Positions 3,460-41,289 of a stretch of DNA of 50,198 nucleotides are shown here, in pieces. The notes below the pieces were generated by a model. The model searched no databases. It saw only the letters and a list, made by a program, of their open reading frames with translations, and was not told the DNA's origin. How positions within the stretch are numbered: the first letter of the stretch is position 1; the number at the start of each line of letters is the position of its first letter. Both the position numbers and the translations under genes were made by a program. The stretch is from the NCBI RefSeq assembly GCF_028292805.1, contig NZ_JAQGLS010000055.1:1-50198 (forward strand). The letters are read 5' to 3'. This DNA is from Ramlibacter sp. (GTDB taxonomy: Bacteria; Pseudomonadota; Gammaproteobacteria; Burkholderiales; Burkholderiaceae_C).

Positions 3460-3555
3460 GGGGTGCGGGAGGGTGTTTTCACCGTTTGTGCCAGAACCCG
3501 GGCGCCACGGGGGATTGCTGTAACAGGCGGGCACCGGCCCTGCCGGGCCAGCGGT

Positions 3556-3594
3556 TATGATTTCCCGCATCGGACGCCGGCTGCCAGCCGGCGT
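3556..3594 (+). promoter_or_regulatory. Candidate -10 and perfect hairpin in the smc leader
   Basis: A TATGAT hexamer (3556-3561) lies 66 bases before the smc GTG. It is followed at 3574-3594 by a perfect inverted repeat, ACGCCGGCT-GCC-AGCCGGCGT. No convincing -35 is present. If transcription starts near 3568, the hairpin sits at the very 5' end of the leader, where it could stabilise the mRNA or bind a regulator. The function is inferred from position only. Confidence 0.35.
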
Positions 3595-3627
3595 TCTCAT
3601 TCGCGTCAGCATCAAAGGCGAGGGGTC

Positions 3628-6600
3628 GTGCGTCTCACTTCCATCAAGCTTTCCGGCTTCAAGTCCTTTGCCGATCCGACCAACTTCCTGCTGCCCGGCC
3701 AGCTGGTGGGGGTGGTCGGCCCGAACGGCTGCGGCAAATCCAACATCATGGACGCCGTGCGCTGGGTGCTGGGCGAGTCCCGCGCCAGCGAGCTGCGCGG
3801 CGAGTCGATGCAGGACGTGATCTTCAACGGCACCACCACCCGCAAGCCGTCCTCGCGCGCGTCGGTCGAACTGGTGTTCGACAACCCCGACCAGCGCGCC
3901 GGCGGCCAGTGGGCCCAGTTCGCCGAGATCGCGGTCAAGCGCGTGCTGACGCGCGACGGCACCTCCAGCTACTACATCAACAACCAGCCGGTGCGCCGGC
4001 GCGACGTCCAGGACGTGTTCCTGGGCACGGGCCTGGGCCCGCGCGCCTACGCCATCATCGGCCAGGGCACCATCAGCCGGATCATCGAGTCCAAGCCCGA
4101 GGAGCTGCGCCTGTTCCTGGAAGAGGCCGCCGGTGTCTCCAAGTACAAGGAGCGCCGACGCGAGACCGAGAACCGGCTGCACGACACGCGCGAGAACCTC
4201 ACGCGGGTGGAAGACATCCTGCGCGAGCTCAACGCCAACCTGGAAAAGCTTGAAAAGCAGGCCGAAGTCGCCGCCCGCTACAACAAGCTGCAGGCCGACG
4301 TCACGCTCAAGCAGCAGCAGCTGTGGTTCTTGAAGCGCTCGGAAGCCGAGGTCGACCAGGGCCGCGTCAAGGCCGATGCCGACAAGGCCGTCAACGACCT
4401 GGAAGCGCGGATGGCCGACCTGCGCCGCATCGAGAGCGAACTCGAGACGGTGCGCCAGGCCCACTATGCGGCCGGCGACCAGGTCAACCAGGCCCAGGGC
4501 CAGCTGTACGAAGCCAGCGCCGAAGTGGGGCGGCTGGAAGCGGAGATCCGCTTCGTGGTCGAAGGCCGGCAACGGGTCGAGCAGCGCTTGCTGCAGCTCA
4601 AGGAGCAGGCCGCGCAATGGGCCGATCGCAAGGACGAAGCCCTGGCCGAGACCGAGAACCTGGCCGCGATGAGCGTCGACGCCGAGGAGCGCGCCACCTT
4701 GCTGGCCGCCCAGCTGGAAGAGCAGGACACGCAGCTGCCCGACCTGGAAGAGGCGCAGCGCCAGGCCCAGGCCCGCGCCTCCGAACAGCGCAGCGCCGTC
4801 GGCCAGGTGCAGCAGCAGATCCAGGTGCTGGCCGCCGACCAGCGCAACATCGAGGAACAATCGCGCCAGCTGAACCAGCGGCGCGAGCGGCTGGTGGTCG
4901 ACCGCAACGCGCTGGCCGCGCCGGACGAAGCCCGGCTGGTCAAGCTGCAGGCCCAGCTGGCCGCCGCGCAGGAAAGCGCCGAAACTTCCGACGCCCGCCT
5001 GCACGAATTGCAGGAACAGGTGCCGCAGCTGGACGAAGACCGTCGCACCCGGCAGCAGGACGTCAATGCCCAGAGCGCCCGACAGTCCGAGCTGTCGGCC
5101 CGGCTGGAGGCCTTGAAGGCGCTGCAGGACAAGGTCCGCACCGACGGCAAGCTGCAGCCCTGGCTGGCCAAGCATGGCCTGGACGGCCTGCAAGGCTTGT
5201 GGAGCCGCATCCACATCGAGCAAGGCTGGGAAAGCGCGCTGGAAGCGGCGCTGCGCGAACGCATGGGCGCGCTGGAAGTCTCGCGCATCGAAATGGTCCG
5301 CGCCTTCGCCGGCGACCCGCCGCCGGCCAAGCTGGCCTTCTACCATCCGCCGGCGGCCGCCGTGCCGGCAGCGGCCGGCGCGCTGCCGCGCCTGGCCGAC
5401 CTGCTGCGCCTGAACGATGCCGGCCAGAAGGCCTTGCTGTCGGACTGGCTGCACGGCTGCTTCACCGCTGGCACGCTGGAAGAGGCACTGGCCGCGCGCG
5501 ACCGGCTGCAGCCGGGCGAGGCGATCTTCGTCCAGGCCGGCCATGCGGTGACGGCGCACAGCGTCAGCTTCTATGCGCAAGATTCCGAGCAGGCCGGCTT
5601 GCTGGCGCGCCAGCAGGAGATCGAGAACCTGGACAAGCAGCTGCGCGCGCAGTCGCTGATCGCCGAAGAAGCGCGGTCCGCCCTGGTGCGGGCCGAAGCA
5701 GCGTACAGCGACGCCGCGCAGCGCCTGACCACGGCCCGGCGCGAGGCCGCCGAGCACCAGGGGCGCGCCCATGAGCTGCAGGTCGAGACGCTGCGCCTGA
5801 CGCAGCTGGCCGAACAGACCCGCGCCCGCAGCGAGCAGATCAGCGGCGACTTGGCCGAAGTGGACGCCTTGCTGGAGGAGTTGCAGGAGCGCCGCGTCGC
5901 CGCCGAGGGCCGCTTCGAGGAACTGGACATGCAGCTGGCCGACAGCCAGGAGCGCCATGCCCAGCTCGATGAACGCGTGATCGAGGTCGAGCGCAAGCTG
6001 GCTCAGGCGCGCGAGCAGCACCGCAGCCTGGAGCGGCAGGCGCAAGAAGCCCAGTTTGCCCAGCGCGCCCTGCAGGCGCGGCGCGGCGAACTGCAGCGGG
6101 CGATCGAGACCGCCACCCAGCAGACGGGCTCGCTCGCGGCCGAGGAAGAACGGGCCCAGGTCGAACTGACGCGGCTGACCGACGCCGCCGCGCAGGCCGG
6201 GCTGCAGACCGCGCTGGAGCTCAAGTCCGCGCGCGAGCAGTCGCTGGGCGCCCAGCGCAGCGAATACGACGACCTGACGGCCAAGCTGCGCGCCAGCGAC
6301 GAGCGCCGGCTGCAGCTGGAGCGCGAGCTCGACCCGCTGCGCCAGCGCATCACCGAGTTCCAGCTCAAGGAACAGGCGGCGCGGCTGGGGCTGGAGCAAT
6401 ACACCCAGCTGCTGGCCGACAACCAGGCCGACCTGGAGGCGGTCGCCAGGTCGATTGCCGAAGGCAACGTGCGGCTGGGCGGCATGCAGGGCGACATCGA
6501 CCGCATCCACCGCGAAGTGGCGGCGCTGGGCGCCGTCAACCTGGCCGCGCTGGAGGAGCTGAGCACGGCGCGCGAGCGCAAGCAGTTCCTGGACGCGCAA

Positions 6601-11900: not shown

Positions 11901-12890
11901 TCATTGCGCCGTGATGCCGCGCATCATGATCACGCCACCGAGCATGGCGGTGTCGGACTTGATGCGGTTGGCCAGGCCTTCGGCGGAGGTGCCGGCCACC
12001 TGCCAGCCTTGCTGGAACAGCTTGCCGCGCACGTCGGGCGAGCGGGTGATCTCGGAGATCAGCTGCGACAGCCTGGCGGCGATCGGCTTGGGCATCGACA
12101 CCGGGGCGGCGGCGGCCGTCCAGATTTCCAGCTGGAAGCCACGCACGTCCTGCTCGTTCAGGCTGGGGTAGTCGGGCACCAGCGGGCTGCGGTTCAGGGA
12201 CGTGACGCCCACGGCCTTGAGCTTGCCGGCGCGGATCTGCGCGGCGGCCAGCGCCGGGGGCAGCAGCGACAGCTGGATCTGGTTGGTCATCAGCGCCTGG
12301 ATCACCTGCGGGTTGCCCGGATAGGGAATGTGCACCGGGGTGATGTTGGTCTTGGTGGCCAGCAGTTCCATGCCGATGTGGCCGACCGTGCCGATGCCTG
12401 GCGAGCCGTAGCTCCACTTGGTGCCGCCGTTGCGCGCCGCCAGGAAGAACTCCTGCGCGTTCTTGAACGGCGCGTCGGCGGGTGCGGTCAGAAGCAGCGG
12501 GGCGGTACCGATCAGGCTGAGCGGCTGGAAGGCCTTGAGCGGGTCGAACGGGGTCGCCGGGTTCAGCATCTTGGCGATGGTCATGTTGCCGTTGATCATC
12601 ACGCCGATGGTGTGGTCGTCGGTCGCCTTGGCCACGATGTCGCCGGCGATGTTGCCGCCCGCGCCGACGCGGTTTTCCACCAGCACCGGCTGGCCGAGCG
12701 CGCGCGACAGCGGCTCGGCGATGGTGCGCGCGACCAGGTCGGGCGTGGAGCCGCCGGGGAAGCCGACGATGATGCGGACCGGCTTGGTCGGCCAGGCGAC
12801 GGCGGGAGCGGTTTTCTGCGCGAAAGCGGTGGTGGCGGCGGCGGCGAGCGCCAGCAGTACGAATCCGCGGCGGGCGGTGGTCTTCGACAT
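11901..12890 (-). CDS. Bug/TctC family periplasmic solute-binding receptor
   Basis: The product is 329 residues with a signal peptide ending AAATTAFAQ. The tripartite tricarboxylate receptor fold is visible in WPTKPVRIIVGFPGGSTPD, RTIAEPLSRALGQPVLVENR, the GAGGNIAGD loop that contacts carboxylate ligands, and YPSLNEQDVRGF. These receptors bind carboxylates or amides in the periplasm for a TctAB membrane pair; many are orphans in Burkholderiales, and no tctA/tctB is nearby here. AGAGGG precedes the ATG. It stands alone, with a strong terminator after it. The ligand cannot be read from sequence. Confidence 0.92.
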   Translation of the reverse strand: MSKTTARRGFVLLALAAAATTAFAQKTAPAVAWPTKPVRIIVGFPGGSTPDLVARTIAEPLSRALGQPVLVENRVGAGGNIAGDIVAKATDDHTIGVMINGNMTIAKMLNPATPFDPLKAFQPLSLIGTAPLLLTAPADAPFKNAQEFFLAARNGGTKWSYGSPGIGTVGHIGMELLATKTNITPVHIPYPGNPQVIQALMTNQIQLSLLPPALAAAQIRAGKLKAVGVTSLNRSPLVPDYPSLNEQDVRGFQLEIWTAAAAPVSMPKPIAARLSQLISEITRSPDVRGKLFQQGWQVAGTSAEGLANRIKSDTAMLGGVIMMRGITAQ

Positions 12891-13055
12891 GGGGATCCCT
12901 CTTGAAATGCGAAACGGCCTTGCTCGGCCGTGGTGGCGATGGTACCGAGCCCCACTGGCGCGGCTTTAAGTGAATTGCGTAGGAAATAAACTCAGGGCCC
13001 GAAGCCGGAAGCTGTCACCATCGGACATCCATGGCCTCCATGGCGTGGAGCAGTC

Positions 13056-13358
13056 ATCAATCCCCTTATCTGGTGCGCCGTCGGCGCGGTCGTCGGCCTG
13101 CTGGCCGGCACCATCATGGGCAGCAACGGCAAGACCGTGCGCATCGAAGAGATCTGCGTGGGCATCTTCGGCGCGTTCATCGGCGGCGAGTTCCTGCCTT
13201 CGGTGCTGAGCGAAACCGGCACCGTGGCTCCCGGCTTCAGCGGGATGGCGCTGATGACCGGTGTCGCCGGCGCGGCCGTCATGCTGGTGCTGCTGAAACT
13301 CATGCGCCGCACGGTCGGCCCGATGCGCGACAGCAAGAGCCGCATGACGAAACGCTGA
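13056..13358 (+). CDS. GlsB/YeaQ/YmgE-type (transglycosylase-associated) membrane protein with apparent ATC start
   Basis: The full frame reads (I)NPLIWCAVGAVVGLLAGTIMG and continues through EEICVGIFGAFIGGEFLP to a third hydrophobic segment, the usual three-helix layout of this stress-associated inner-membrane family. The ORF-track start at 13116 would remove the first helix. No ATG, GTG or TTG lies in frame upstream. GGAG at 13047-13050 is followed after 5 bases by ATC AAT CCC, where homologs would have ATG AAC CC, so an ATC start is the simplest reading. Alternatives are a point mutation, a sequence error, or a one-base change joining the GTG frame just upstream. Product about 100 residues. 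Confidence 0.7.
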   Translation: MNPLIWCAVGAVVGLLAGTIMGSNGKTVRIEEICVGIFGAFIGGEFLPSVLSETGTVAPGFSGMALMTGVAGAAVMLVLLKLMRRTVGPMRDSKSRMTKR

Positions 13359-13381
13359 CCGCGGTTCGGCTCCCTCGCCTG

Positions 13382-16006
13382 TCAGGAACTGATTGCCTGC
13401 AGCAGCTCGGTTTCGATCTCGATCTGTTGCCGGCTGTGCTGCAGTTCCGGCCCGTCGATCAGGAAGGTGTCTTCCACCCGTTCGCCCAGCGTGCTGACCT
13501 TGGCCAGCTGCAGGTTCAGGTTGTGCTGCGCCAGCACCCGCGCCACCGAATAGAGCAGCCCCACCCGGTCGCTGGCCGAGATCGACAACAGCCAGCGCTG
13601 CGCCTTCTCGTCGGGCCGCAGCTCCACCCGCGGGGGCACCGGGAAGCTGCGCACCCGGCGTGACACGCGGCCGCGACTGGGCGCCGGCAACGGCCCGGCG
13701 GCGGTGATGGTAGCGCACAGGTCGCTCTCCACCATGCTGCACAGCTCGCGGTAGTGCTCCGGCAGCATCGCCGTCACCACCTGGAAGGTGTCCAGCGCCC
13801 AGCCGTTGCTGGCCGTGTGGATCTTGGCGTCCAGGATGCTGAAGCCGGCCTGGTCGAAGTAGCCGCAGATGCGGGCGAACAGGTCGGTCTGGTCCGGCGT
13901 GTACGCCAGCACCTGCAGGCCTTCGCCCACCGGGGACATGCGCGCGCGCACGATCACCTTGGCACTGCCCACGTGGCGTGACAGGTGGCGCGTGTGCCAG
14001 GCGATGTCGCCGGCCTCGTGGCGCATGAAGTAGCCGACGTCGAGCGTGTCCCACAGCTTCTTGTGCCCCTCGAACGGCTCGGCCAGCAGCTGCAGCTGCA
14101 CCAGCGCCTCGCGCTTGCGCGCCTCGATCTCGGCCGCCGGGTCAGGCGCGCGGCCGCCCAGGCGGCGCAGCGTGTAACGGTACAGGTCCTCCAGCAGCTT
14201 GGCCTTCCAGGCGTTCCACACCTTGGGGCTGGTGCCGCGGATGTCGGCCACCGTCAGCAAGTACAGCGCGGTGAGATAGCGTTCGTTGCCGACCCGGGCA
14301 GCGAAGGCCTCGATGACGGCCGGGTCGCCCAGGTCCTGCTTCTGTGCCACCTGGCTCATCGCCAGGTGCTCCCTGACCAGGAACTCGACCAGCGCGCAGT
14401 CCTCCGGGTCGATCCGGTGCTGGCGGCAAAAGCGTCGCACCTCGCGCGCGCCCAGCTCGCTGTGGTCGCCGCCTCGGCCCTTGGCGATGTCGTGGAACAG
14501 CGCCGCGATGTAGAAGATGTGCGGCTTGTCCCAGCCGGCGGCCAGCTGGCTGCAGAACGGGTACTCGTGGGCGTGCTCGGCCAGGAAAAAGCGGCGCACG
14601 TTGCGCAGCACCATCAGGATGTGCTGGTCCACCGTGTAGACGTGGAACAGGTCGTGCTGCATCTGGCCGACGATGCGGCGGAACACCCACAGGTAGCGCC
14701 CCAGGACCGAGGTCTGGTTCATCAGCCGCATGGCATGGGTGATGCCCTTGGGCTGCATCAGCATGGCGCGGAAGGTGGCGTGGTTGACCGGGTCGTTGCG
14801 AAAGCTTGCGTCCATCACCTTGCGCGCGTTGTAGAGCGCGCGCAGCGTGCGGGCCGACAGGCCCTTCACGCCCGGCGTGGTCTGGTACAGCAGGAAGGTC
14901 TCGAGGATGGCTTGCGGCTGCCGCAGGTACAGGTCGTCGCTCGCCACCTCGATGTTGCCGGCCTTCTCGAAGAAACGCCCGTTGATGGGATGCGGCTCCT
15001 GCGCCGCCGGGTTCAGCCGCTCCTCGATGTTCAGCAGCAGGATCTGGTTGAGCTGGGCGACGGCCTTGGCCGCCCAGTAGTAGCGCTTCATCAGCCGCTC
15101 GCTGGCCCGCTGCAGCACCCGGCCGTCCAGGCGCATGGTGGCCCTGTAGCCGAAGGTCTCGGCCACTGCGGTCTGCAGGTCGAACACCAGCCGGTCTTCG
15201 CGCCGCTGCGCCACCATGTGCAAGCGGGCCCGGATCAGTCCCAGCAGCGCTTCGTTGCGCTTGATCTGGCGCGCCTCGAAGGCCGTGGCCAGGCCGCGCC
15301 GCGCCAGCTCGTCCCAGGTCTTGCCGAAGCCGGCGGCGTTGGCCACCCACAGGATCACCTGCAGGTCGCGCAGCCCGCCCGGCGACTCCTTGCAGTTCGG
15401 CTCCAGCGAGTAAGGCGTGTTCTCGAACTTGTTGTGCCGCTGGCGCATCTCCAGCGTCTTGGCGACGAAGAAGGCGCGGGCGTCGACGGTGGCGCGAAAG
15501 CGCTCCTGAAAGCCGGCGAACAGCTTGCGCGAACCGGTCAGCAGGCGCGCCTCGAGCAGGCTGGTCTGCACCGTGACGTCGCCGGCGGCCTGCGCCACGC
15601 ATTCCTCCACCGTGCGCACGCTGGAGCCGATTTCCAGCCCGCAGTCCCAGCAGCTGCCGATGAAGGCTTCCACCCGGCGCTTGAGGTCGGGATCGTGGCC
15701 CACCGCAATGCCGTCGGGAACCAGCACCAGCACGTCGACGTCGGAATAGGGAAACAGCTCGCCGCGGCCGAACCCGCCCACTGCCACCAGCGCCACCCCG
15801 GCCGGCATGCCGGCGCCTTGCCACAGGGCTATCAGGGCGTCGTCGGCGACCGCGGCAAAGGCCTGCAGCAGAGGCCGGATGCCGCGGGTGGTGCCGGCTT
15901 CCGAGCGCAACGCGCCCAGCAGCGCCGCCTTGCGCACGCGAAACGCCCCCCGCACCGCCTGGACTTCGGCGGCGGGTGCGGCCGGAAGCGCGGCGGCCGG
16001 GTTCAT
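13382..16006 (-). CDS. glnD: Bifunctional uridylyltransferase/uridylyl-removing enzyme (PII regulator)
   Basis: GlnD senses glutamine and uridylylates or deuridylylates PII proteins, controlling nitrogen assimilation. The 874-residue product has the nucleotidyltransferase motif [19 protein letters not shown] (about 77-95) and a helical GlnD linker. The HD phosphohydrolase motif is in [15 protein letters not shown] (about residue 500), and two ACT domains lie near 685-745 and 800-855, where glutamine binds. Length and order match the family. It lies 7 bases after map on the same strand, so it is probably co-transcribed. Confidence 0.96.
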
Positions 16007-16013
16007 CCGGCCT

Positions 16014-16817
16014 TCACCCCTTCACGAACGCTGGCGGCGCCGGGCTTCCCGCCGACAGCGTCAGCACTTCGTAGCCGGTGTCGGTCACCAGCACGGTGTG
16101 CTCCCACTGGGCCGACAGCGAATGGTCCTTGTTGACGATGGTCCTGCCGTCGTTGCCGAACTCCTTCACGTCGCGCCGGCCGGCATTGATCATGGGCTCG
16201 ATGGTGAACGTCATGCCCGGCTTGAGCTCCTCCAGCGTGCCGGGCTTGCCGTAGTGCAGCACCTGCGGCTCTTCGTGGAAGTTCTTGCCGATGCCGTGGC
16301 CGCAGAACTCGCGCACCACCGAGAAGCTGTGACTTTCGGCGAACTTCTGGATCGCCCAGCCGACGTCGCCCAGCCGCACCCCCGGCTTGACCTGCACGAT
16401 GCCATGCCACATGGCGTCATAGGTGACGCTCACCAGGCGCCTGGCGGCGATGGAGGCGTCGCCGATGATGAACATCCGGCTGGTGTCGCCGTACCAGCCG
16501 TCCTTGATGACGGTGACGTCGACGTTGCAGATGTCGCCCTTCTTGAGCGGCTTGTCGTTGGGGATGCCGTGGCAGACCACGTGGTTGACCGAGGTGCAAA
16601 GCGACGCCGGGTAGGGCGGGTAGCCGGACGGCTGGTAGCCCAGCGTGGCCGAAATCGAGCCCTGCTTTTTCATGTGCTCGGACGCCAGCCGGTCGATCTC
16701 CCGGGTGGTGATGCCCGGCTTGATGTGCTCGGTGAGGTGGTCCAGGACCTCGGCGGCCATCCGGCACGCGGTCCGCATCCCCTGGATGCCTTGTTCGTCT
16801 TTGTACGTGATACCCAT
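16014..16817 (-). CDS. map: Methionine aminopeptidase, type I
   Basis: This enzyme removes the N-terminal methionine from proteins after deformylation. The 267-residue product shows the five metal ligands in context: the two aspartates in [20 protein letters not shown], the histidine in [14 protein letters not shown], the glutamate in [11 protein letters not shown] and the glutamate in QWEHTVLV. It is the first gene of the leftward map-glnD pair. GATAAT ends 7 bases before the ATG, so the message may be leaderless. Divergent from purL. Confidence 0.96.
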
Positions 16818-16824
16818 GCTGTGG

Positions 16825-16830
16825 ATTATC
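16825..16830 (-). promoter_or_regulatory. -10-like GATAAT for map
   Basis: The minus strand reads GGGATAATCC directly before map, with the hexamer ending 7 bases from the ATG. The same GGGATAATCC core precedes dapC. No clear -35 is visible. A transcript would start at the first base of the ATG or one before it. Confidence 0.4.
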
Positions 16831-16924
16831 CCAGAGGGTGGAAACCCGCGCAGTTAGAATTGCCGGGGTGCCGAGTCCCAGTCAGCGACCGGCAAGCCAC
16901 TCCTCCAAGACCAGGTTTCCAACA

Positions 16925-29699: not shown

Positions 29700-31186
29700 G
29701 AAGAGCAGCTGATCTCGATGTGGGCCGCCCAGTCGGGCGGAAAACCGGCCTTGGCCTCCTGGTCCGGGTGCTCGTCGTACGGCGCTTGCACCAGGCGCAG
29801 CAGGGTTTCGACTTCGGAATGGTCCTGGAGTTTCGCCTGCCGGATGGCCAGCTCGCACAGGTGGTTGCGCAACACGTATTTGGGGTTGGTTGCCAGCATC
29901 GCAATGCCGGCGGCGGATCGGTCGGCGGGCAGCCGGGCCAGCCAGCTGTGCAGCCAGGTGTCGGCGGCCGCACGGTCCATGAACAGGTCGCGCACCGGCT
30001 CCGCCGGGCTGCCCGCGGCCAAGTGCGACAGCCGCCGCCAGAAGATCGGGTAATCCACCCGGTCGGCCGCCAGCAGCTTCAGGATGTCCTCGACCAGCTC
30101 GCGGTCGCCGTCCTGCTGGTCGGCCAGGCCCAGCTTGGCGCGCATGCGCGCTTGCAGCTCGCGCGGGAACACGGTCTTGTACGACTCCAGCGCGGCCAGG
30201 GCCAGCTCCTGCTCTCCCACCAGCGGCAGCAGCGCCTGGCCCAGGCAGAACAGGTTCCAGTACGCCACGTTGGGCTGGCGGTTGAAGGCGTAGCGGCCTT
30301 GCTCGTCGCTGTGGTTGCACACGTGGTTGGGCACGAAGGCATCGAGAAACTGGAACGGCCCGTAGTCGATGGTCAGCCCCAGGATGCTCATGTTGTCGGT
30401 GTTCATCACCCCATGGCAAAAACCCGCCGCCTGCCACTGCGCCACCATGGCGGCCGTGCGTTCGCTCACCCGCTCCAGCAGCGCCGCGTAGGGGTTGCCG
30501 GCGAAGCGCTCGGTGAGCCGGCATTCCGGGTAGAACTGGTCGATCACGTAGTCGGCCAGCCGGCGTAGTTCGCCATATTGCTCGCGCGCCGAAAAATGCT
30601 CGAAGTGGCCGAAGCGGATGAAGCTGGGCGCCACCCGCAGCACCACCGCGGCGGTCTCGATTTCTTCCCGGCGCACGGGTTGCGGCGAGCCGGTCACGCT
30701 CAGAGCGCGCGTGGTGGGAATGCCCAGCCCGTGCATCGCTTCCGAGCACAGGTATTCGCGGATGCTGGAGCGCAGCACGGCGCGGCCATCGCCCATACGC
30801 GAATAAGGGGTGAGGCCACTGCCTTTGAACTGCAGCTCCTGCGGGCCTTGCGGCGTCTCGATGTCGCCCAGCAGGATGGCGCGGCCGTCGCCGAGCTGGC
30901 CGGCCCAGACGCCGAACTGGTGGCCACTGTAAACCGAGGCCAGCGGCCGCTGGCCGGCCAGCGGCAGGCTGCCCGCCAGCGCGGCCACGCCGTCGGGCGA
31001 AGAGAGCAATTGCGCGTCCACGCCGAGCTGAGTTGATAGCTTCGTATTAAGTGAAACCATGTACGGCGCGGCCAGCGGCGTGGGGCTAAGGTCGGTGCGG
31101 AAGGCTGGCCCCAGCCCGGAGAAGCTGTGCTTCCACGCGAGGCCCAGGTCCAGCGCCCGCGAGGGTGCTGCTACGGCTTGATCCAT
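29696..31186 (-). CDS. selO: Protein adenylyltransferase SelO (YdiU/UPF0061)
   Basis: SelO is a pseudokinase-fold enzyme that AMPylates proteins, including redox proteins. The 496-residue product shows [20 protein letters not shown], the nucleotide-binding [20 protein letters not shown] region, a metal/catalytic stretch [19 protein letters not shown], and a C-terminal SCSS. The start [10 protein letters not shown] at 31186 is chosen; the track extends 22 codons further. It heads the leftward operon selO-msrB-yciB-bolA-parvulin and is divergent from the signalling module. The terminal Cys is ordinary cysteine, with no sign of selenocysteine. Confidence 0.94.
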
Positions 31187-31238
31187 GCCTGATTGTCGAC
31201 GCTGGTTCGAACACGGGCCTCGAGCGGGATACAGACGG

Positions 31239-31266
31239 TTGCGTTTCGACACCAGAACGGGATAAT
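31239..31266 (+). promoter_or_regulatory. Sigma-70-type promoter of the signalling module
   Basis: TTGCGT (31239-31244), a 16-base spacer and GATAAT (31261-31266) lie in the 132-base gap between selO and the FeeM-like gene. A start near 31273 gives a leader of about 45 bases ending in AGGGAG before the ATG. This is one of the better promoter matches in the window. Confidence 0.5.
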
Positions 31267-31318
31267 TCCAGCCTGCAGAGTTCCGACCACGGGACCGCTT
31301 TCAGGGAGAAAGTCAGTG

Positions 31319-32028
31319 ATGAACGAAGTATCCGGGGCGCAGCGCTCGCCGACGATGCTGCCAGCCAGCCTGCGGGCGATGCTGGCCGCGCCGCCACCCA
31401 CGGCGGCCACCGAGCTGCAGGCGCACGAGGTGGCGTTCCGCTGCCTGCGTGGCGCCCACGAAATCAGTCAGATCCAGCACCTGCGCAACCAGATCGCGCT
31501 GCCCGCGTCCGCGGTGGGTGACGCCGGCTTTGCCATGCGCGAAAAAAAAGAGACGAAATCGGCGTGGTCGGCGCTTTCGTGCGCTACGGCGAGTACATCG
31601 GTACCATCCGCTACCTTCCCATGAACGAGGGCCTGGCCCCGTGCGACGCGTTGGTCCGCCGGCACGGTGTTGCCGACGAACTCCTGGACGCGAGCTGGGA
31701 GGTCGGCCGCCTCGTGCTGGATCCCCGCTACCGGAGCAGTCCCGAAGCCCTCAAGCGCTGCCTGTTGCTGCCGCTGGTCCACCTGATGAAGCAAATGCCC
31801 GTGGTTAACGTGTTCGCATCCTGCACGCCGGTGCTCAGCCGCCTGTACCGGCGCTTCGGTTTCAGCGTCCTGGTCAAGGACGCGGCTCAAGACGCAGAGG
31901 GCAGCTACTCGCTAATCCACGGCCGCACGCCGGACATGTTGCGGGCGCTGGTCGCCGGCGACGCCGAAAAACGCATGGCCGAGGAAATCCTGGCGATGCA
32001 GGAAGCCTCCATGGTGTTGCCATGCTGA
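31319..32028 (+). CDS. FeeM-like GNAT / acyl-homoserine-lactone-synthase-superfamily protein, frameshifted at A8
   Basis: Two overlapping frames make one protein of about 236 residues. The first runs from MNEVSGAQRS to FAMREKK at 31549; the second continues RDEIGVVGAFVRYGEYIGTI to 32028. They join if the run of eight A's (31542-31549) had nine. The joined product has an N-terminal substrate-recruiting region, a strand-helix core with SWEVGRLVLDPRYR (where LuxI/FeeM proteins have an E..R.V strand), a long acyl-CoA/ACP-binding helix, and VFASCTPVLSRLYRRFGF, the usual GNAT end. FeeM-type enzymes make N-acyl amino acids from acyl-ACP. It overlaps the kinase gene by 7 bases. It may be an inactivated gene, a slippage-controlled gene or a sequencing error. 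Confidence 0.62.
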
Positions 32029-34535
32029 TGGGCTTGGCGCGCGGCTTGTTCAAGCACTATGAGGATTACCACGCTTATGGCCCGTCGCGGCTGAAGGCCA
32101 TCGGCGTCCTCGGCGCCATCACGTACTGCATCTTCTACTTCATGCGGTTCACGCGACCCGATGCGTCGCTCACCGCCGACCTGGGCGAGCGCGCGCTGGC
32201 CATCATCCTGTTCGCCATTCTCGGCCTGCGCGACTACTGGCCCGAGAAGCTCAAGCCGTACTACATCCGCGTCTCGTACGTGGTAGTGCTCTACAGCCTG
32301 CCGTGCTTCACCGTGCTGGTGGCCCTGCAGCGCAGCGGCGGTGTCGCCAACATCTCCAACGCCTTCATCGTCCTGAGCTTCCTGGTGTTGCTGACCGACT
32401 GGCGCAACACGCTGGTGATGCTGGCGGCGGGCACCGGGCTGGCCGCGGCGATCTACTGGGCGACCACGCCCGACCCGCAGGTGCCGATGGACCTGGTGGC
32501 GCAGCTGCCGGCCTTCGCGCTGATTGTGATCGGTGGCAACCTGTTCAAGTCGAACACCGACAAGATCGACGCCGAGCGCAAGCTGCGGGCCACTCAGGCG
32601 CTGGCCGGCTCCATCGCCCACGAGATGCGGCACCCGCTGGCCCAGCTCAAGCACAGCCTGGAAGGCATGCAGGAGGTGCTGCCGGCGCCGGGCGCGGCGC
32701 GCCAGACGGCAAAGCTCGACGCGCAGCAGGTGCAGCAGCTGTACCGGCACCTGGCGCGCGGCGAGCAGGCGGTGCAGCGGGGGCTGCAGGTCATCTCGAT
32801 GACGCTGGACGAAGTCAGCGCGCGGCCGATCGACGCGTCCGCCTTCCGTCACCTGTCGGCCGCCGAGGTGGTGCACCAGGCCGTCGAGGAATACAGCTAC
32901 GACAACGACGCAGCGCGCGACAAGGTCACCGTCACCGTGGCCGACGACTTCACCTTCAAGGGCGACGAGACGGCCTATCTGTTCGTGCTGTTCAACCTGA
33001 TCAAGAACGCGCTGTACTACCTGGCGCCGTACCCGCAAACGCGGGTGACGATCACGATCGGCAACCAGCAAGTGAAGGTGCACGACAACGGCCCCGGCAT
33101 CGCACCGGATGCGCTGCACGGCCTGTTCGAGCCGTTCCGCTCGGTCGGCAAGTCGGGCGGCACCGGTCTTGGGCTGGCCTATTGCCAGCGCGTCATGCGC
33201 GCCTTCGGCGGCGAAATTTCGTGCGTCTCGGTGCCCGGCCAGTCCACCGAGTTCACCATGCGCTTTCCCGGCATCAGCGAGGAGGAGCGGGAGGCGCACT
33301 GGCGCGACGCCGTGGCCGAGGCGCGCGCCGTGCTGGCCGGCAAGCGCGTGCTGATCGTCGAGGACGACGCGGTCCAGCGCATGGCCACCCGCCACAAGCT
33401 GGGCCCGCTGGCCGTGACGGCGGAACTGGACGAGGCGGCCGACGGCCAGCTAGCCATCGACCTGCTGACGCGCCGTGCCTACGACATCGTGCTGCTGGAT
33501 CTGCACATGCCCGGCCTGGACGGCTATGCCGTGGCCGAGAAGATCCGCAACGACCCGGGCATCAACCAGGACGCGCGCATCGTCGCGTACTCCAGCGAGC
33601 CGGCCCACCTGGCACGCGCCAAGGCCTTGAAGGGCGGCATGGACGGCTTCATCAGCAAGCCTTGCGCCCAGCTGCCCTTGCTGGCGGCGCTGCAGCAGTC
33701 GGTGCAGCAGCCGCGCGGCCTGGGGCGCCACGCACCGGGCCGGCTGGCCGGACGCCGGATCCTGCTGGCCGACGACAGCTCCTTCAGCCGCAAGGCCGTG
33801 GCGGCCTACCTGCGCAATGCGGCGGCGACGGTGATCGAGGCCGAGCACGGCCAGGCCGTGCTCGACCAGCTGAACGCGCTGGAAGGTTTCGACGCCATCA
33901 TCCTGGACCTGCACATGCCGGGCATGGACGGCCTGGAGACGGCCCAGGCCATCCGCTCGAGCAGCGCAGCCTGGTCGACTTTACCCGTCGTGGCCCTCAC
34001 CGCGCACTCCGACGAGCAGGCGGTGGCGGCGGCCCGCGCCGCCGGCATGGACGGCTTCCTGGTCAAGCCGGTCGAGTCGGCCCACTTGTACGAAACGCTG
34101 GTGCGCCTGCTGGGCGGCAGCGCGGTGGCCAGTCCGGCCGTTACGCAACCGCTGGCGCAGGGACCGCCGCCGGTGCCCGACGCCGGCTTGCTGAACCTGC
34201 AGCGGCTGGAGAGCTATCGGCGGCTGGGAATGGTGGAGGAATTGCTCGAGGACTACGTCCCCGAGATGGCCAAGCTGGTGCTGGCACTGCAGGAGGCGGG
34301 CCGCGCCGACGACCAGCCGCTCAGCCTCGGTGCCTTGCACTCGCTGCTGGGCATGAGCGGTGAGGCCGGTGCCCAGGCGCTGTACCAGCACGTGCGGCGG
34401 ATCTACGTTCCCTTGCTCGAGCAGGGCCAATGGCCAGCCGGCGAGAACTGGCTGGCCGAACTCCAGGCCCTGGCGGCCCGCACCGAGAGTGCACTGAAGG
34501 CTTACTGCGAGACCGAGTTCCGCTCGAACGCTTGA
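32022..34535 (+). CDS. CqsS/PhcS-like hybrid sensor histidine kinase with two receiver domains and HPt
   Basis: The product is 837 residues. Six membrane helices span about 25-175 with short loops and no periplasmic sensor domain, like the quorum-sensing receptor CqsS. The HisKA box GSIAHEMRHPLAQLKHSL places the phospho-histidine at about 200; the HATPase has NLIKNALYYL, VHDNGPGIAPDAL and GGTGLGLAYCQRVM. Receiver 1 (about 440-555) has LLDLHMPG, receiver 2 (about 577-700) ILDLHMPGMDG, and a C-terminal HPt has ALHSLLGMSGEAGA (about 772). It can therefore run a complete phosphorelay. The gene overlaps the FeeM-like gene by 7 bases and is followed 8 bases later by an RR-kinase. The ligand is unknown. 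Confidence 0.88.
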   Translation: MLMGLARGLFKHYEDYHAYGPSRLKAIGVLGAITYCIFYFMRFTRPDASLTADLGERALAIILFAILGLRDYWPEKLKPYYIRVSYVVVLYSLPCFTVLVALQRSGGVANISNAFIVLSFLVLLTDWRNTLVMLAAGTGLAAAIYWATTPDPQVPMDLVAQLPAFALIVIGGNLFKSNTDKIDAERKLRATQALAGSIAHEMRHPLAQLKHSLEGMQEVLPAPGAARQTAKLDAQQVQQLYRHLARGEQAVQRGLQVISMTLDEVSARPIDASAFRHLSAAEVVHQAVEEYSYDNDAARDKVTVTVADDFTFKGDETAYLFVLFNLIKNALYYLAPYPQTRVTITIGNQQVKVHDNGPGIAPDALHGLFEPFRSVGKSGGTGLGLAYCQRVMRAFGGEISCVSVPGQSTEFTMRFPGISEEEREAHWRDAVAEARAVLAGKRVLIVEDDAVQRMATRHKLGPLAVTAELDEAADGQLAIDLLTRRAYDIVLLDLHMPGLDGYAVAEKIRNDPGINQDARIVAYSSEPAHLARAKALKGGMDGFISKPCAQLPLLAALQQSVQQPRGLGRHAPGRLAGRRILLADDSSFSRKAVAAYLRNAAATVIEAEHGQAVLDQLNALEGFDAIILDLHMPGMDGLETAQAIRSSSAAWSTLPVVALTAHSDEQAVAAARAAGMDGFLVKPVESAHLYETLVRLLGGSAVASPAVTQPLAQGPPPVPDAGLLNLQRLESYRRLGMVEELLEDYVPEMAKLVLALQEAGRADDQPLSLGALHSLLGMSGEAGAQALYQHVRRIYVPLLEQGQWPAGENWLAELQALAARTESALKAYCETEFRSNA

Positions 34536-34543
34536 ACCCGTCC

Positions 34544-35722
34544 ATGCAAGCGCCACCCGAGCTTCCCGGCGCCGCGCCCGGCATCCTGTTCGTCGACGAC
34601 GAACCGACATCCCGCAAGTGGTTCGCCCGCGAATTCGGTGACGAGTTCAAGGTGGTCACGGCCGGCGGCGCCGACGAGGCTCTGGCCATGCTGGGCGCGC
34701 GCAGCAGCGAGTTCGGTGTGCTGGTCACCGACTACCGGATGCCCGAGCGCGACGGCATGAAGCTGCTGCGGGCGGTGCAGCGCGACTTCCGCCACGTGAT
34801 CCGCCTGCTGGCGACCGCCTACGCCGAGAAGGACGTGGCGATCGCCGCGGTCAACCAGGGCAAGGTGCTGCGCATCCTGGAAAAGCCGTTGGACGGCAAC
34901 GCGACGCGCGAGGCCTTGCGTGAGGCGCTGGCGCTGTACCGCACCCAGACCCTGGAGCGGATGGTCAACGAAGGCCGGGTGGCGGCCTTGCGCGAGGCGC
35001 TGGGCTTCCTGGCGCACGAACTGAACACGCCGCTGGCGACCGTGCGCGGCCTGATCGGCACCGTCGCGGCGCGGCAGCTGCCGACGCCGCCGGACGCCGC
35101 CGCCGGCGTGGCGTACTTCACCGAAGACCATCCGGGCGAGATCGTCGCGGCGCTGGAGCGGGCCGAGCGCCGCGCGTTGTACTGCCAGTCGCTGGTGTCC
35201 ACCTTCGTGCAGTCGGCGCGCGACGCCTATCCGGGCGCCGTGCCGCAATCGGTCAGCGCCAGCAGCCTGGTGGGCGCGCTGCTGGACGAATTTCCGTTCG
35301 AAGCCAACGAGCGCGGCTGCGTCAGCAGCGACGTGCAGCACGACTTCCACCTGCCCGGCCGGCGCGACTTGCTGTACCTGGTGCTGTGCACGCTGGCCAA
35401 GAACGCCTTGTTGGCGCTGCGCGGGCGGCCGTCGCCGCAGCTGCGCATCGAAGTCGGCTGCGACGAGCGGGCCCTGCCGGGCCGGCGCGCCTGGATACTG
35501 TTTCGCGACAACGGCCCCGGCATCCCCCCGGAGGTGCTGGCCAAGCTGACCCGCGAGCCGGTCACCACCCGGGCAAGCACCGGCGGCAACGGCATGGGCT
35601 TGCTGTTCTGCCACCGCGTCATGCAGGCCATCAACGGCAGCATCGACATCCAGTCGGTGCCGGGGCAGGGCACCGCAGTGGCGCTGTTCTTCCAGCCACT
35701 GGCCGCGGGCAGCACCGGATAA
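34544..35722 (+). CDS. Response regulator with C-terminal histidine kinase domain (PhcR/PhcQ-like layout)
   Basis: The product is 392 residues. The receiver (about 12-120) has ILFVDDEPTSRKW, the phospho-aspartate at about 63 in VTDYRMPERDG and ILEKPLD. A linker helix leads to a HisKA-like segment AALREALGFLAHELNTPLATV with a histidine at about 158. The HATPase (250-388) has LAKNALLAL, FRDNGPGIPPEV and GGNGMGLLFCHRVM. There are no membrane helices and no DNA-binding domain, so output is phosphotransfer. Similar receiver-kinase proteins accompany PhcS in Ralstonia. The start is the ATG 8 bases after the preceding stop; a longer start is possible. Confidence 0.88.
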   Translation: MQAPPELPGAAPGILFVDDEPTSRKWFAREFGDEFKVVTAGGADEALAMLGARSSEFGVLVTDYRMPERDGMKLLRAVQRDFRHVIRLLATAYAEKDVAIAAVNQGKVLRILEKPLDGNATREALREALALYRTQTLERMVNEGRVAALREALGFLAHELNTPLATVRGLIGTVAARQLPTPPDAAAGVAYFTEDHPGEIVAALERAERRALYCQSLVSTFVQSARDAYPGAVPQSVSASSLVGALLDEFPFEANERGCVSSDVQHDFHLPGRRDLLYLVLCTLAKNALLALRGRPSPQLRIEVGCDERALPGRRAWILFRDNGPGIPPEVLAKLTREPVTTRASTGGNGMGLLFCHRVMQAINGSIDIQSVPGQGTAVALFFQPLAAGSTG

Positions 35723-35789
35723 CGCCGACGCCCCGGGCCGGGCCGGTTAGGATTTCGGTCATCGCGTAGCCAACAACACAGGAGACCGA

Positions 35790-37430
35790 ATGCTGGGCCT
35801 GATGCAAAGCCAACCGCTGCTGATTTCGTCGCTGATCGAGCACGCGGAGCGCCACCATGGCGACACGGAAATCGTTTCGCGGCGGGTAGAAGGCGACATC
35901 CACCGCTACAGCTGGCGCGAGGCGGCGCGGCGGTCGCGCCAGGTGGCGCATGCCCTGGACGGCATGCAGCTGCTGTTTTCCGACCGGGTGGCGACGCTGG
36001 CCTGGAACGGCTACCGCCACCTGGAGCTGTACTTCGGCGTCAGCGGCTCGGGCCGCGTGCTGCACACCCTGAACCCGCGGTTGCACCCGGAGCAGATCGC
36101 CTGGATCGCCAATCACGCCGAAGACCAGGTGCTGTGCTTCGACCTGACCTTCCTGCCGCTGGTGCAGGCGATCCACGCCAGGTGCCCAGGCATCCGCCAG
36201 TACGTGGCGCTGTGCGAGGCCGACCAGATGCCGGCGGACAGCGGCGTGCCCAACCTGCTTTGCTACGAAGACTGGATCGGCGGCCAGTCCACCAGCTACC
36301 GCTGGCCAACCTTCGACGAAAACTCGGCCTCGAGCATGTGCTACACCAGTGGCACCACCGGCCACCCCAAGGCCGCGCTCTACAGCCACCGTTCGACCCT
36401 GCTGCACGCCTACGCCGCCGCCTTGCCGGACGTCATGAGCCTGTCGGCGCGCGACTCGGTGCTGCCGGTGGTGCCGATGTTCCACGTCAATGCCTGGGGC
36501 ATCCCGTACTCGGCGGCGCTGACCGGCTGCAAGCTCGTGTTCCCCGGCCCGGCCCTGGACGGCAAGTCGGTGTACGAACTGATCGAGGCCGAGCAGGTGA
36601 CGTATGCCGCCGGCGTGCCCACCGTCTGGCAGATGCTGTTGGGCCACATGAAGCCGGCCGGGCTGCGCTTTTCCGCGCTCAAGCGCACGGTGATCGGCGG
36701 CTCGGCCTGCCCGCCGGCCATGATCGCCGCCTTCCGCGAAGACTACGGGGTCGAGGTGCTGCACGCCTGGGGCATGACGGAGATGAGCCCGCTGGGCACG
36801 CTGTGCACCTTGAAGAACAAGCACCTGGCGTTGCCCGCGCAAGACCAGATGAAGCTGCGCCTGAAACAGGGCCGCACCATCTTCGGCGTCAACATGAAGA
36901 TCGTCGGCGACCAGGGCCAGGAGCTGCCCTGGGACGGCAGGACCTTCGGCGACCTGTACGTCAAGGGGCCGTGGGTGCTGCGCGAGTATTTCAAGGGCGA
37001 GGGCGGCGATCCGCTGGTCAAGGATGCCGACGGGGTCGGCTGGTTCCCTACCGGCGACGTCGCCACCATCGACGGCGACGGCTACATGCAGATCACCGAC
37101 CGCAGCAAGGACGTGATCAAGTCGGGCGGAGAGTGGATCAGCTCGATCGACATCGAGAACATCGCCATGGCCCATCCGGGGGTGCAGATGGCAGCCTGCG
37201 TCGGCATGCCGCACCCGAAATGGGACGAGCGCCCGATCGTCGCCGTCGTCAGGCGCCCCGGCGCCGAAGTCACGCGCGAGGAGCTGATCGGGTTCTACGA
37301 AGGCAAGATCGCCAAGTGGCAGGTGCCCGACGACGTGGTATTCGTCGAGGCGATTCCGCTGGGTGCCACCGGCAAGATGCTCAAGACCCGGCTGCGCGAA
37401 ACGCTCAAGGACTACAAGCTGCCAGCGTGA
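35790..37430 (+). CDS. AMP-forming acyl-CoA ligase (medium/long-chain type)
   Basis: The product is 546 residues and activates a carboxylic acid to its acyl-CoA via an acyl-adenylate. Motifs are [17 protein letters not shown] (P-loop), [45 protein letters not shown] (hinge) and [13 protein letters not shown] with the C-terminal catalytic lysine. The sequence is of the fatty-acyl-CoA ligase FadD13/AlkK-like group; chain length cannot be set by eye. A CAGGAGA ribosome-binding site precedes the ATG. TAGGAT at 35748-35753 may be a -10. It lies 67 bases after the signalling module and ends before a strong terminator. Confidence 0.9.
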
Positions 37431-37518
37431 CCGGCGGCGCCAACTCTTGCCTGTCACCTGCGCGATATGCAGCCGGGGCCTCAGGGGCGATCCCTGAGCA
37501 GAGGCGCCGCTACGGCAG

Positions 37519-37543
37519 GCCCGACCGCTCGGGCTTTTTTTTT
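37519..37543 (+). terminator. Intrinsic terminator after the acyl-CoA ligase gene
   Basis: GCCCGA-CCGC-TCGGGC followed by nine T's, a textbook rho-independent terminator. It sits 19 bases before livH, so it either separates the operons or attenuates read-through into the transporter. A second small hairpin, CTCAGGG/CCCTGAG (37480-37498), lies just upstream. Confidence 0.88.
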
Positions 37544-37561
37544 GCAGACTGCTGGAGGGGT

Positions 37562-38515
37562 ATGTTTTCCGAGTTCGTGACCATTTCGCTGTTGAACGGC
37601 GTGAGCTACGGCCTGCTGCTGTTCATGCTCAGCTCTGGCCTGACGCTGATCTTCAGCATGATGGGCGTGCTCAACTTCGCCCACACCAGCTTCTACATGC
37701 TGGGCGCCTACCTGGCGTACACCATCTCCGGCGTGGTCGGCTTCTGGCCGGCCCTCTTGCTGGCGCCGCTGGCAGTGGGCGCGCTGGGCGCGCTGTTCGA
37801 GCGCTACGCGCTGCGCCGCGTGCACAAGTTCGGCCACGTACCGGAACTGCTGGTGACCTTCGGCCTGTCGTACCTGATCCTGGAGCTGGTCCAGCTGATC
37901 TGGGGCCGCTCCACCGTGCCCTACGGCCTGCCGACGCAGCTGCAGGGCCCGCTGTTCACGCTGTTCGGGACGCAATTTCCCAGGTCGCGCTCCTTCATCA
38001 TGCTGGTGGCGCTGATGATGCTGGCCAGCGTCTGGCTGCTGCTCACGCGCACGCGGATCGGGCTGGTGATCCAGGCCGCGCTGGCGCATCCCGACATGGT
38101 CGAAGCGCTCGGGCACAACGTGCCGCGCGTGTTCATGCTGGTGTTCGGCGGCGGCGCCGCGCTGGCAGGGCTGGCCGGCGTGATCGGCGGCAACACCTAC
38201 GTGACCGAGCCGGCGATGGCCGCCTCGGTCGGCTCCATCATCTTCGTGGTGGTGGTGGTCGGCGGCATGGGCTCGCTGGCCGGCGCCTTCCTGGCCTCGC
38301 TGCTGATCGGCATCCTGCAGACTTTCGCGGTGGCGCTGGACCATTCGGCGGCCAGCATGCTGCGGCCGCTGGGCGTCAACCTCACTGAAGGCGACTTCGG
38401 CTACCCCTTGATGTCCCTGACCATCTCGCAGGTGGCGCCCATCCTGCCGTACCTGTTGCTCGTGCTGATCCTGATTTTCCGGCCCAGTGGCCTGCTCGGG
38501 AAGCGGGAAGACTGA
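37562..38515 (+). CDS. livH: Branched-chain amino acid-type ABC transporter permease
   Basis: The product is 317 residues with about eight membrane helices, a LivH-family permease of the hydrophobic amino-acid uptake transporters. Typical are LLNGVSYGLLLFMLSSGLTL, GVLNFAHTSFYMLGAY and the late GGMGSLAGAFLASLLIG. A GGAGGGG site precedes the ATG. It is the first of four consecutive transporter genes; a livK receptor gene is not in the window. The substrate may be amino acids, aromatic acids or related compounds. Confidence 0.93.
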   Translation: MFSEFVTISLLNGVSYGLLLFMLSSGLTLIFSMMGVLNFAHTSFYMLGAYLAYTISGVVGFWPALLLAPLAVGALGALFERYALRRVHKFGHVPELLVTFGLSYLILELVQLIWGRSTVPYGLPTQLQGPLFTLFGTQFPRSRSFIMLVALMMLASVWLLLTRTRIGLVIQAALAHPDMVEALGHNVPRVFMLVFGGGAALAGLAGVIGGNTYVTEPAMAASVGSIIFVVVVVGGMGSLAGAFLASLLIGILQTFAVALDHSAASMLRPLGVNLTEGDFGYPLMSLTISQVAPILPYLLLVLILIFRPSGLLGKRED

Positions 38516-38516
38516 G

Positions 38517-39814
38517 ATGGCACGCACCAAGACCCATTACAGCTTCAGGCCGCTGAACGCAGCCCGCTGCGCCATCTGGTCGCTGTTCGCGCTGGCGCTG
38601 GTCGTCGCCCCGCTGGTGTTCAAGAGCAGCCTGGCGCTGACGATGCTGTCGCAGATCGGCTATCTGATCGTCATCTGCCTGTCGTACAACATCCTGCTGG
38701 GGCAGGGCGGCATGCTTAGCTTCGGCCACGCGGTGTACGTCGGCCTGGGCTCCTTTATCGCCATCCACGCGATGAACCTGGCGTCCAAGGGCGCCATCCC
38801 GGTGCCGCTGGTGCTGATCCCGCTCGTGGGCGGCCTGGCCGGCGTGTTCTTCGCGGCGCTGCTCGGCTTCGTGACGACCAAGAAGTCGGGCACCACCTTC
38901 GCCATGATCACGCTGGGCATCGGCGAGCTGGTCGCCTCGATGGCGTTGATGTTCCCCAGCTTCTTCGGCGGCGAGGGCGGCGTCACCACCAACCGGGTCT
39001 ACGGCCAGCCGTTCCTGGGCATCACCTTCGGGCCGCAGATCCAGGTGTACTACCTCATCGCCTCCTATTGCTTCGTCTGCACCGCCGCGATGTACGCCTT
39101 CACCGGCACGCCGCTGGGGCGCATGCTGAACGCGGTGCGCGACAACCCTGAGCGGGTCGAGTTCATCGGCTACAACACCCAGCGCGTGCGCTACTTCGCC
39201 TTCATCGTCTCGGGCTTTTTCGCCGGCGTCGGCGGCGGGCTGGCGGCGATCAACTTCGAGATCGTCAACGCCGCCGACAGCCTGGCGGCGGCGCGCTCGG
39301 GCGGCTACCTGCTGTTCACGTTCCTGGGCGGCGCCACCTTCTTTTTCGGCCCCATCATCGGCGCCGTGCTGCTGGTGTTCGCCTCCATCCTGCTGTCGGA
39401 GTTGAGCAAGGCCTGGCTGCTGTACCTGGGCCTGATCTTCCTGTTCATGGTGATGTATGCGCCCGGCGGCGTGGCCAGCCTGATCATGATGAACGTGCGG
39501 GTGGCGGCCTACGGCAAGCTGCGCACGCTGTGGGTGGCGTACCTGGCGCTGGCCGGCACGGCGCTGTTCGCCGTGCTGGGCGTGGCCGCGATCGTCGAGA
39601 TGATCTACCACATCCAGTTGAACGCGGCGCTCGGGCCGGTGGTCCCCTTTCTGGGCGCCAGCCTCGACACCCGTTCGCTGGACACCTGGGCCGGCGCCGT
39701 CTTCCTGCTGCTCGCCAGCCTCGGGCTGTTCGAGCTGACGCGTCGCAGCTTCCTGCGACAGTGGGACACCATCCAGGAAGAAATCGAGCGCGAGATCAAG
39801 CACCGGGAGGCACT

Positions 39815-39818
<4 letters not shown>
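38517..39818 (+). CDS. livM: Branched-chain amino acid-type ABC transporter permease, extended
   Basis: The product is 433 residues, the LivM partner of LivH. Core family marks are LSYNILLGQGGMLSFGHAVYVGLG, GTTFAMITLGIGELVASM and the cytoplasmic coupling loop GRMLNAVRDNPERVEFIGY. It is about 100 residues longer than the usual LivM because of one or two extra membrane helices and a charged tail (QEEIEREIKHREAL) after the core. The ATG is one base after the livH stop. Confidence 0.92.
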
Positions 39819-40593
<775 letters not shown>

Positions 40594-40594
<1 letters not shown>

Positions 40595-41289
40595 TGCTGA
40601 CCGTGAAGAACCTGCATGCCTTCTATGGCAAGAGCCACGTGCTGCATGGGGTGCAATTCGAAGTGGGGCAGGGCGAGATCGTGGCCTTGCTCGGGCGCAA
40701 CGGCTCCGGCCGCTCCACCACGGCCAAGGCGGTGATGGGAATGGTGGAATGCGCCGGCGACGTCAGCTGGCGCGGCCAGGCGATCCAGGGCCGCAAGCCG
40801 TACGAGATCGCCCACCTGGGCATCGGCTACGTGCCGGAAAACCGCGAGATCTTCCCCCGGCTCACCGTCCACCAGAACCTGATGCTGGGGCAAAAGAAAG
40901 CCGGCCAGAAAGGCCGCTGGAGCTTCGGTGACATGTACGCGATGTTCCCGCGGCTGAAGGAGCGGCAGCACACCGAGGCTGGCGTGCTCTCGGGGGGCGA
41001 GCAGCAGATGCTGACGCTGTGCCGCACCCTGATGGGCGACCCGGAGCTGATCATCATCGACGAGCCGACCGAGGGCCTGGCGCCAAAGATCGTGGAGCTG
41101 GTGGGCGAGTACCTCAAGAGGCTCAAGGCGCGCGGCGTGTCGGTGCTGCTGATCGAGCAGAAGCTGACCATCGCCATGGCGATCTCGGACCGCACGCTGG
41201 TGATGGGGCACGGCAGCATCGTGTTTCAGGGAACCCCTGACAGCCTGCGCGCCGACGCCTATATTCGGAAGGAATGGCTGGAGGTCTGA
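40594..41289 (+). CDS. livF: ABC transporter ATP-binding protein LivF with arginine in Walker A
   Basis: The product is 231 residues, the second ATPase of the Liv transporter. It has a normal signature (VLSGGEQQMLTLCRTL) and Walker B (LIIIDEPTEGLAP), but Walker A reads GRNGSGRSTT, with arginine where the catalytic P-loop normally has lysine. The codon is CGC, so this is not a marginal read. The partner livG has the normal lysine. The start ATG overlaps the livG stop (TGATG), preceded by AAGGAGG. Confidence 0.92.

Follow-up and report, generated by a model that had tools for sequence, protein, structure and literature searches.

Three clustered genes in Ramlibacter sp. quite probably form a circuit for an acyl signal whose synthase would be obtained only through programmed recoding, with a signalling role that we infer. 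The first gene, predicted to encode a synthase, is divided between two reading frames that meet at a run of eight adenines (A8), and the second and third encode a hybrid histidine kinase and a receiver-kinase. The conserved -1 frameshift is the most unusual feature of the locus, and it was missed in an earlier reading of the same DNA (the sequence-only reading), where the two frames had been joined silently. The locus lies within the window, by which is meant the whole stretch of 50,198 nucleotides that was analysed, and which comes from a genome of 3.83 Mb.

Organization of the locus

All three genes are on the plus strand downstream of selO, in the order and at the coordinates at which they were first read. 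The synthase-like gene occupies positions 31319 to 32028 and is composed of an N-terminal part in frame 0 (31319 to 31549, which runs from the ATG through both AAA codons of the shift site) and a C-terminal part in frame -1 (31549 to 32028, stop codon included) that carries the GNAT core with E128 and R131 (numbered along the joined protein) and the motif YRRFGF. It is followed by the gene for the hybrid histidine kinase (32022 to 34535; 837 aa), in which a sensor domain (residues ~1-185) precedes HisKA, HATPase and two receiver domains and a weakly Hpt-like C terminus, and by a gene for a receiver-HisKA-HATPase protein (34544 to 35722; 392 aa from the ATG at 34544). The packing is as tight as originally described, with an overlap of 7 bases between the end of the -1 frame (32028) and the kinase start (32022), and a gap of 8 bases between the kinase stop (34535) and the next ATG (34544). 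The sigma-70-like promoter proposed for the cluster was not recovered, a promoter scan of positions 31050 to 35800 giving 0 matches.

The shift site and the joined protein

Frames 0 and -1 of the first gene meet at ATGCGC GAA AAA AAA GAG ACG, with the shift motif GAAAAAAAAGAGAC at 31541 to 31554 and its A8 at 31542 to 31549. Read without a shift, frame 0 (31319-31624) ends at a stop codon at 31622-31624 and encodes 101 aa; the full synthase reading, as predicted from the sequence, requires a slip back of one base at A8. Here, frame 0 reads GAA AAA AAA GAG, and after the -1 shift the reading continues as AGA GAC, giving ..REKK|RDEIGVVGAF.. and a joined protein of 236 residues. The N-terminal part fits the family profile in frame 0, and Shine-Dalgarno sequences precede the zero-frame starts in most genes. 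The fused products align without gaps across the junction to in-frame relatives, in which the KK pair is not conserved. Regarding the earlier description of this gene as a synthase, the family likeness stands, but the gene is not one open frame.

The two frames might instead be made as separate proteins that assemble, and possible internal starts do exist in the -1 frame (for example, GTG at 31564). However, no conserved -1-frame start was seen past the tract, internal starts would lose the conserved residue D79, and the in-frame relatives are single chains, which together make an assembly of two products extremely unlikely.

Distribution, gain and loss of the shift

The same -1 shift was found in 44 distinct genes from 43 genomes and five genera, the window included. 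The A8 run and its -1 relation are seen in the Ramlibacter records L012-L020 and L022 (L016 apart) and in further members of the genus, and the shifted gene also occurs in other genera (L092, L098, L116-L118). In a survey of the genus the synthase was present in 43 of 60 genomes, and an order-wide profile search of 399 genomes gave a match in the source genome only, where absence is weak evidence because no more than seven candidates were scored per genome. The sequence GAAAAAAAAGAGA[CT] is present in 42 of the 43 distinct loci besides the window, the remaining one (L093) having an A9 variant that still requires a -1 shift. The slippery sequence A_AAA_AAA is in register with the -1 frame change in 44/44 genes, which come from a patchy sample of genomes; the sequences are related by descent, so that these counts are not independent. 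Among all fetched loci, the homologues without the A-run (13 distinct) are all in frame.

Homopolymer indels are frequent in assemblies, and the indel-rich assemblies of R. terrae (L022) and R. montanisoli (L016) were left out of the 44-gene count. The A8 with its -1 relation is still visible in R. terrae; R. montanisoli (one assembly, L016/L187) is in frame at the tract by way of a 2-base deletion, and several other indels are present in adjoining genes. A sequencing error or a decaying pseudogene might on such grounds be suspected in the window as well, yet the same single shift recurs in 44 genes, including those of genomes in one or few contigs (G273, G838, G792), both halves are conserved, and the codon constraint is limited to the site. 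An artefact or pseudogene was rejected on the strength of the 44 conserved cases and has a practically negligible probability; the comparison indicates that the shift is genuine and not an error. Homopolymer runs also mutate readily, as would be expected of a phase-variable contingency locus in which A8 is the OFF state and tract-length mutants are ON. None of the 44 genes is in frame through an altered tract length, however, and the sole A9 case still needs the -1 shift; phase variation was rejected for this lack of in-frame tract-length variants and is very unlikely.

In a maximum-likelihood tree of 57 synthases, drawn with a root for display only, the 44 shifted genes all fall within one group of 46 (support 100/100), and the two other members, the in-frame genes L163 and L094, each pair with a shifted gene at a well-supported node. 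On this tree there must have been three changes of shift state, which would most simply be explained by one gain and two losses, the shift and the run having been lost together twice. At the site L163 reads GAA AGA CGA AAA GAC and L094 reads GAA TCG ATC CGC GAC; neither retains the run, and each is again in one frame. These two genes are the strongest argument that it is the joined product that functions and that the run serves the shift. Programmed recoding of the synthase gene is strongly supported at the level of comparative sequence.

Codon constraint and the mechanism of the shift

Across the 44 codon-aligned genes only four codons (GAA AAA AAA AGA) are essentially fixed, GAA and both AAA codons in 44/44 each and AGA in 43/44, and the G, T, R and P residues that are invariant at 20 to 26 codons downstream are encoded by mixed codons. 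Outside the site, as counted in 18 genes, lysine is encoded by AAA in 16 of 67 cases and arginine by AGA in 6 of 347, AGG being commoner than AGA (25 versus 6).

Stimulators such as a Shine-Dalgarno-like sequence or a stem-loop are common at -1 recoding sites, although they are not obligatory. No conserved Shine-Dalgarno-like motif was found upstream of the site by inspection, nor a conserved stem-loop or other structure downstream of it, and for want of a conserved stimulator ribosomal -1 frameshifting and transcriptional slippage are not separated. In the latter, RNA polymerase would add an extra A at A8 in some transcripts, and ordinary translation would then yield the same protein. A bare A-run with no conserved stimulator suits such slippage, and A8-A9 runs in some insertion sequences are thought to be used in this way (PMC1088944). 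On the other hand, the constraint passes the end of the run, AGA being kept despite the commoner AGG, and the run length is 8 in 43/44 genes as against the usual slippage length of nine (PMC1088944). Neither point is decisive, and transcriptional slippage remains a substantial possibility, if somewhat short of probable. The fixation of AGA past the run leans slightly towards the ribosome. A_AAA_AAA, with seven A, produced 10% shifting in one published E. coli cassette (PMC3711429). The recoding of dnaX, of insertion sequences and of magnesium chelatase also involves a -1 shift at an A-run (A_AAA_AAR or poly-A), in another class of genes (PMC5009743, PMC3711429). In the literature searched there was no signal-synthase case of A-run recoding, no frameshifting in an AHL or autoinducer synthase, and no account of a circuit of the window's type.

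The synthase family

The first gene product is predicted to be a GNAT synthase of the FeeM/LuxI superfamily. This likeness, noted at first reading, was confirmed with Pfam FeeM (E=6e-4 on the window fragment) and by a search of the PDB with the synthase profile, in which the AHL synthase TofI was the only match (E=2e-5). Pfam FeeM recognizes 14/15 family members at E<=0.01 (best 1.6e-9); the window scores 19.6 bits, below the curated cut-off of 27, and the member L018 scores 28.2. Only FeeM/GNAT models match the first gene. A search of the source genome with Autoind_synth (PF00765) gave no match, and it is uninformative as the controls were silent too. The predicted model of the in-frame relative L094 has a GNAT fold (pLDDT 88.6), with FeeM (TM 0.60) among its top fold matches and AHL synthases also present, at ~15% identity. 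The window synthase has a predicted GNAT fold and a conserved E..R pair in common with FeeM and the LuxI-type AHL synthases TofI and LasI, and it differs from them in this ~15% identity and in being split over two frames. The synthase alignment shows no variation at R56, D79, R98, E128 and R131; since R56 is located before the junction and the other four after it, the short product would be unable to act as an enzyme of the GNAT synthase type.

The kinases and their pairing with the synthase

The second gene had been described as a CqsS-like six-helix receptor kinase, which agrees with the six membrane-length helices of the sensor domain in the predicted model and with the results of profile searches. 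Across the phylum the sensor profile retrieves CqsS-like hybrid kinases of another family (680-730 aa; E=3e-13 to 6e-18), as well as kinases whose neighbouring enzymes pass the alpha-hydroxyketone autoinducer synthase cut-off of NCBIfam, and the window sensor aligns with the CqsS/LqsS-type sensors so found. Against the PDB, the sensor sequence gave no significant match and the sensor fold search nothing below E 0.5. The third gene is, as first read, a receiver fused to a kinase, and no output domain was found in it.

The three genes are co-conserved across species, and neither of the findings that the sequence-only reading had named as refuting it, a first protein devoid of GNAT/FeeM similarity or a lack of co-conservation in relatives, was obtained. 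Every locus of sufficient length has a CqsS/LqsS-type kinase after the synthase, and a receiver-kinase is often next. Synthase stop and kinase start overlap in 24/38 measurable loci and are within 25 bases of each other in most others, an arrangement in which ribosomes that have shifted could go on to translate the kinase. Synthase identity follows sensor identity closely (Spearman 0.86), and the partial correlation of synthase with sensor, kinase core and receiver-kinase being removed, is 0.56 as against 0.05 for the core and 0.16 for the receiver-kinase, values that are built on overlapping pairs. The trend is clearest in L018, L019 and L093, which in comparison with the window have identities of 45-47% in the sensor, 41-42% in the synthase and 77-78% in the receiver-kinase. 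Divergence in the synthase is matched by divergence in the sensor domain and not in the kinase core.

Variants of the arrangement were also encountered. In two genomes of another genus (L116, L118) the synthase retains the A8 shift, although the kinase is shorter, at ~570 aa, and there is no receiver-kinase. In L096 a related kinase (start 9482, reverse complement) is beside an apparent decayed synthase remnant upstream (LSRLCRRLGF) and is perhaps an eavesdropping receptor. In L223 (2051-3364, minus strand) a CqsS-type hybrid kinase of another family has upstream of it a 438-aa ORF of no clear Pfam family, perhaps another type of synthase. Between synthase and kinase in L117 (7210-7878), and at the matching place in L094, there is an iron enzyme of the Haem_oxygenas_2 type (PF14518); this haem-oxygenase-like enzyme is a possible signal-tailoring step.

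The metabolic neighbourhood and a second pair

Downstream of the circuit, the plus strand carries an AMP-binding, acyl-CoA-ligase-like gene (35790 to 37430), assigned by Pfam AMP-binding (E=1e-68) and synteny, then permeases and ATPases of a Liv-type (branched-chain amino acid) ABC transporter (37523 to 41289), and next in the order come FadB-like and thiolase-like genes. The ligase adjoins the circuit in most loci compared, and the Liv-type binding-protein gene that is present in relatives is missing in the window (37430-37523). With ligase, transporter and beta-oxidation genes adjoining, the recoding might be real and the kinase nevertheless not sense the enzyme's product, the pair being linked otherwise, for example through acyl-lipid metabolism. 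Against this stand the adjacency of synthase and kinase in every testable locus and the co-divergence of synthase and sensor, and we consider a non-sensing kinase unlikely, though less so than the other readings set aside above. A kinase that senses the product is the preferred reading.

Several relatives possess an in-frame sister pair that the first reading missed. In L092, a FeeM-like synthase read in frame, together with a CqsS-type kinase of its own (2664-5404), faces the shifted system (12572-16919) across the ligase-transporter block, such that two signal pairs surround one metabolic block. Four genomes (G806, G795, G838, G788) match L092 in the spacing and orientation of the synthases, the shifted and the in-frame synthase being 13-16 kb apart and oppositely oriented, and in G135 an in-frame synthase-kinase pair is found at the opposite end of the block.

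Relation to known signalling systems

In the alpha-hydroxyketone quorum-sensing systems CqsA/CqsS, LqsA/LqsS and JqsA/JqsS a synthase is likewise found beside a six-helix membrane histidine kinase, and the sensor domains are homologous to that of the window. CqsA, LqsA and JqsA have an aminotransferase fold, whereas the window synthase is GNAT/FeeM-like, requires a -1 shift and is accompanied by an additional receiver-kinase; no aminotransferase-fold synthase accompanies the window's CqsS/LqsS-type kinase. The Phc system of Ralstonia has the same order of synthase, membrane kinase and receiver-kinase, and is likened to the window by gene order alone. PhcB is a methyltransferase, in contrast to the first gene of the window with its FeeM/GNAT matches.

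Neighbouring genes for an AHL synthase and a hybrid kinase are also known from Vibrio, as LuxM/LuxN and AinS/AinR. LuxN is the best NCBIfam match of the window kinase core, a match that covers the kinase and receiver part and not the sensor. LuxM belongs to another enzyme family than the window synthase, and recoding is not known in either system. The pairing of a FeeM/LuxI-type synthase with a CqsS/LqsS-type receptor holds, and is co-conserved, but given these precedents it is less unprecedented than the sequence-only reading had claimed.

The proposed circuit and its implications

Decoding would begin in frame 0 at 31319 and proceed to GAA AAA AAA, where a fraction of it would slip back one base on A8 (or the RNA would have gained one A) and continue with AGA GAC to produce the 236-residue synthase. 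Unshifted decoding would end in a product of ~101 residues that is predicted to lack the catalytic core. With the synthase stop overlapping or abutting the kinase start in most loci, shifted ribosomes could contribute to translation of the receptor. The synthase probably moves an acyl chain onto a small amine or amino acid, and its product is probably recognized by the CqsS-type sensor, from which the signal would pass through the kinase and its receivers to the receiver-kinase. We tentatively entertain, as quite possible but not yet probable, the fuller proposition that the circuit serves cell-to-cell signalling, that the synthase is obtainable only by way of conserved programmed recoding, that the shift gates the level of synthase and, by the overlap, translation of the receptor, and that FeeM-like acylation is new for CqsS-type receptors.

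Obligatory recoding is uncommon in ordinary bacterial chromosomal genes, and were the shift regulated, the threshold for signalling would be set by decoding itself. As the shifted genes would normally be called frameshifted pseudogenes, the circuit would escape automatic annotation altogether. L163 and L094, in which the site has been lost naturally, could serve as controls, and signal specificity may be tested on the divergent pairs of synthase and sensor, in a system that spans Ramlibacter and related soil bacteria.
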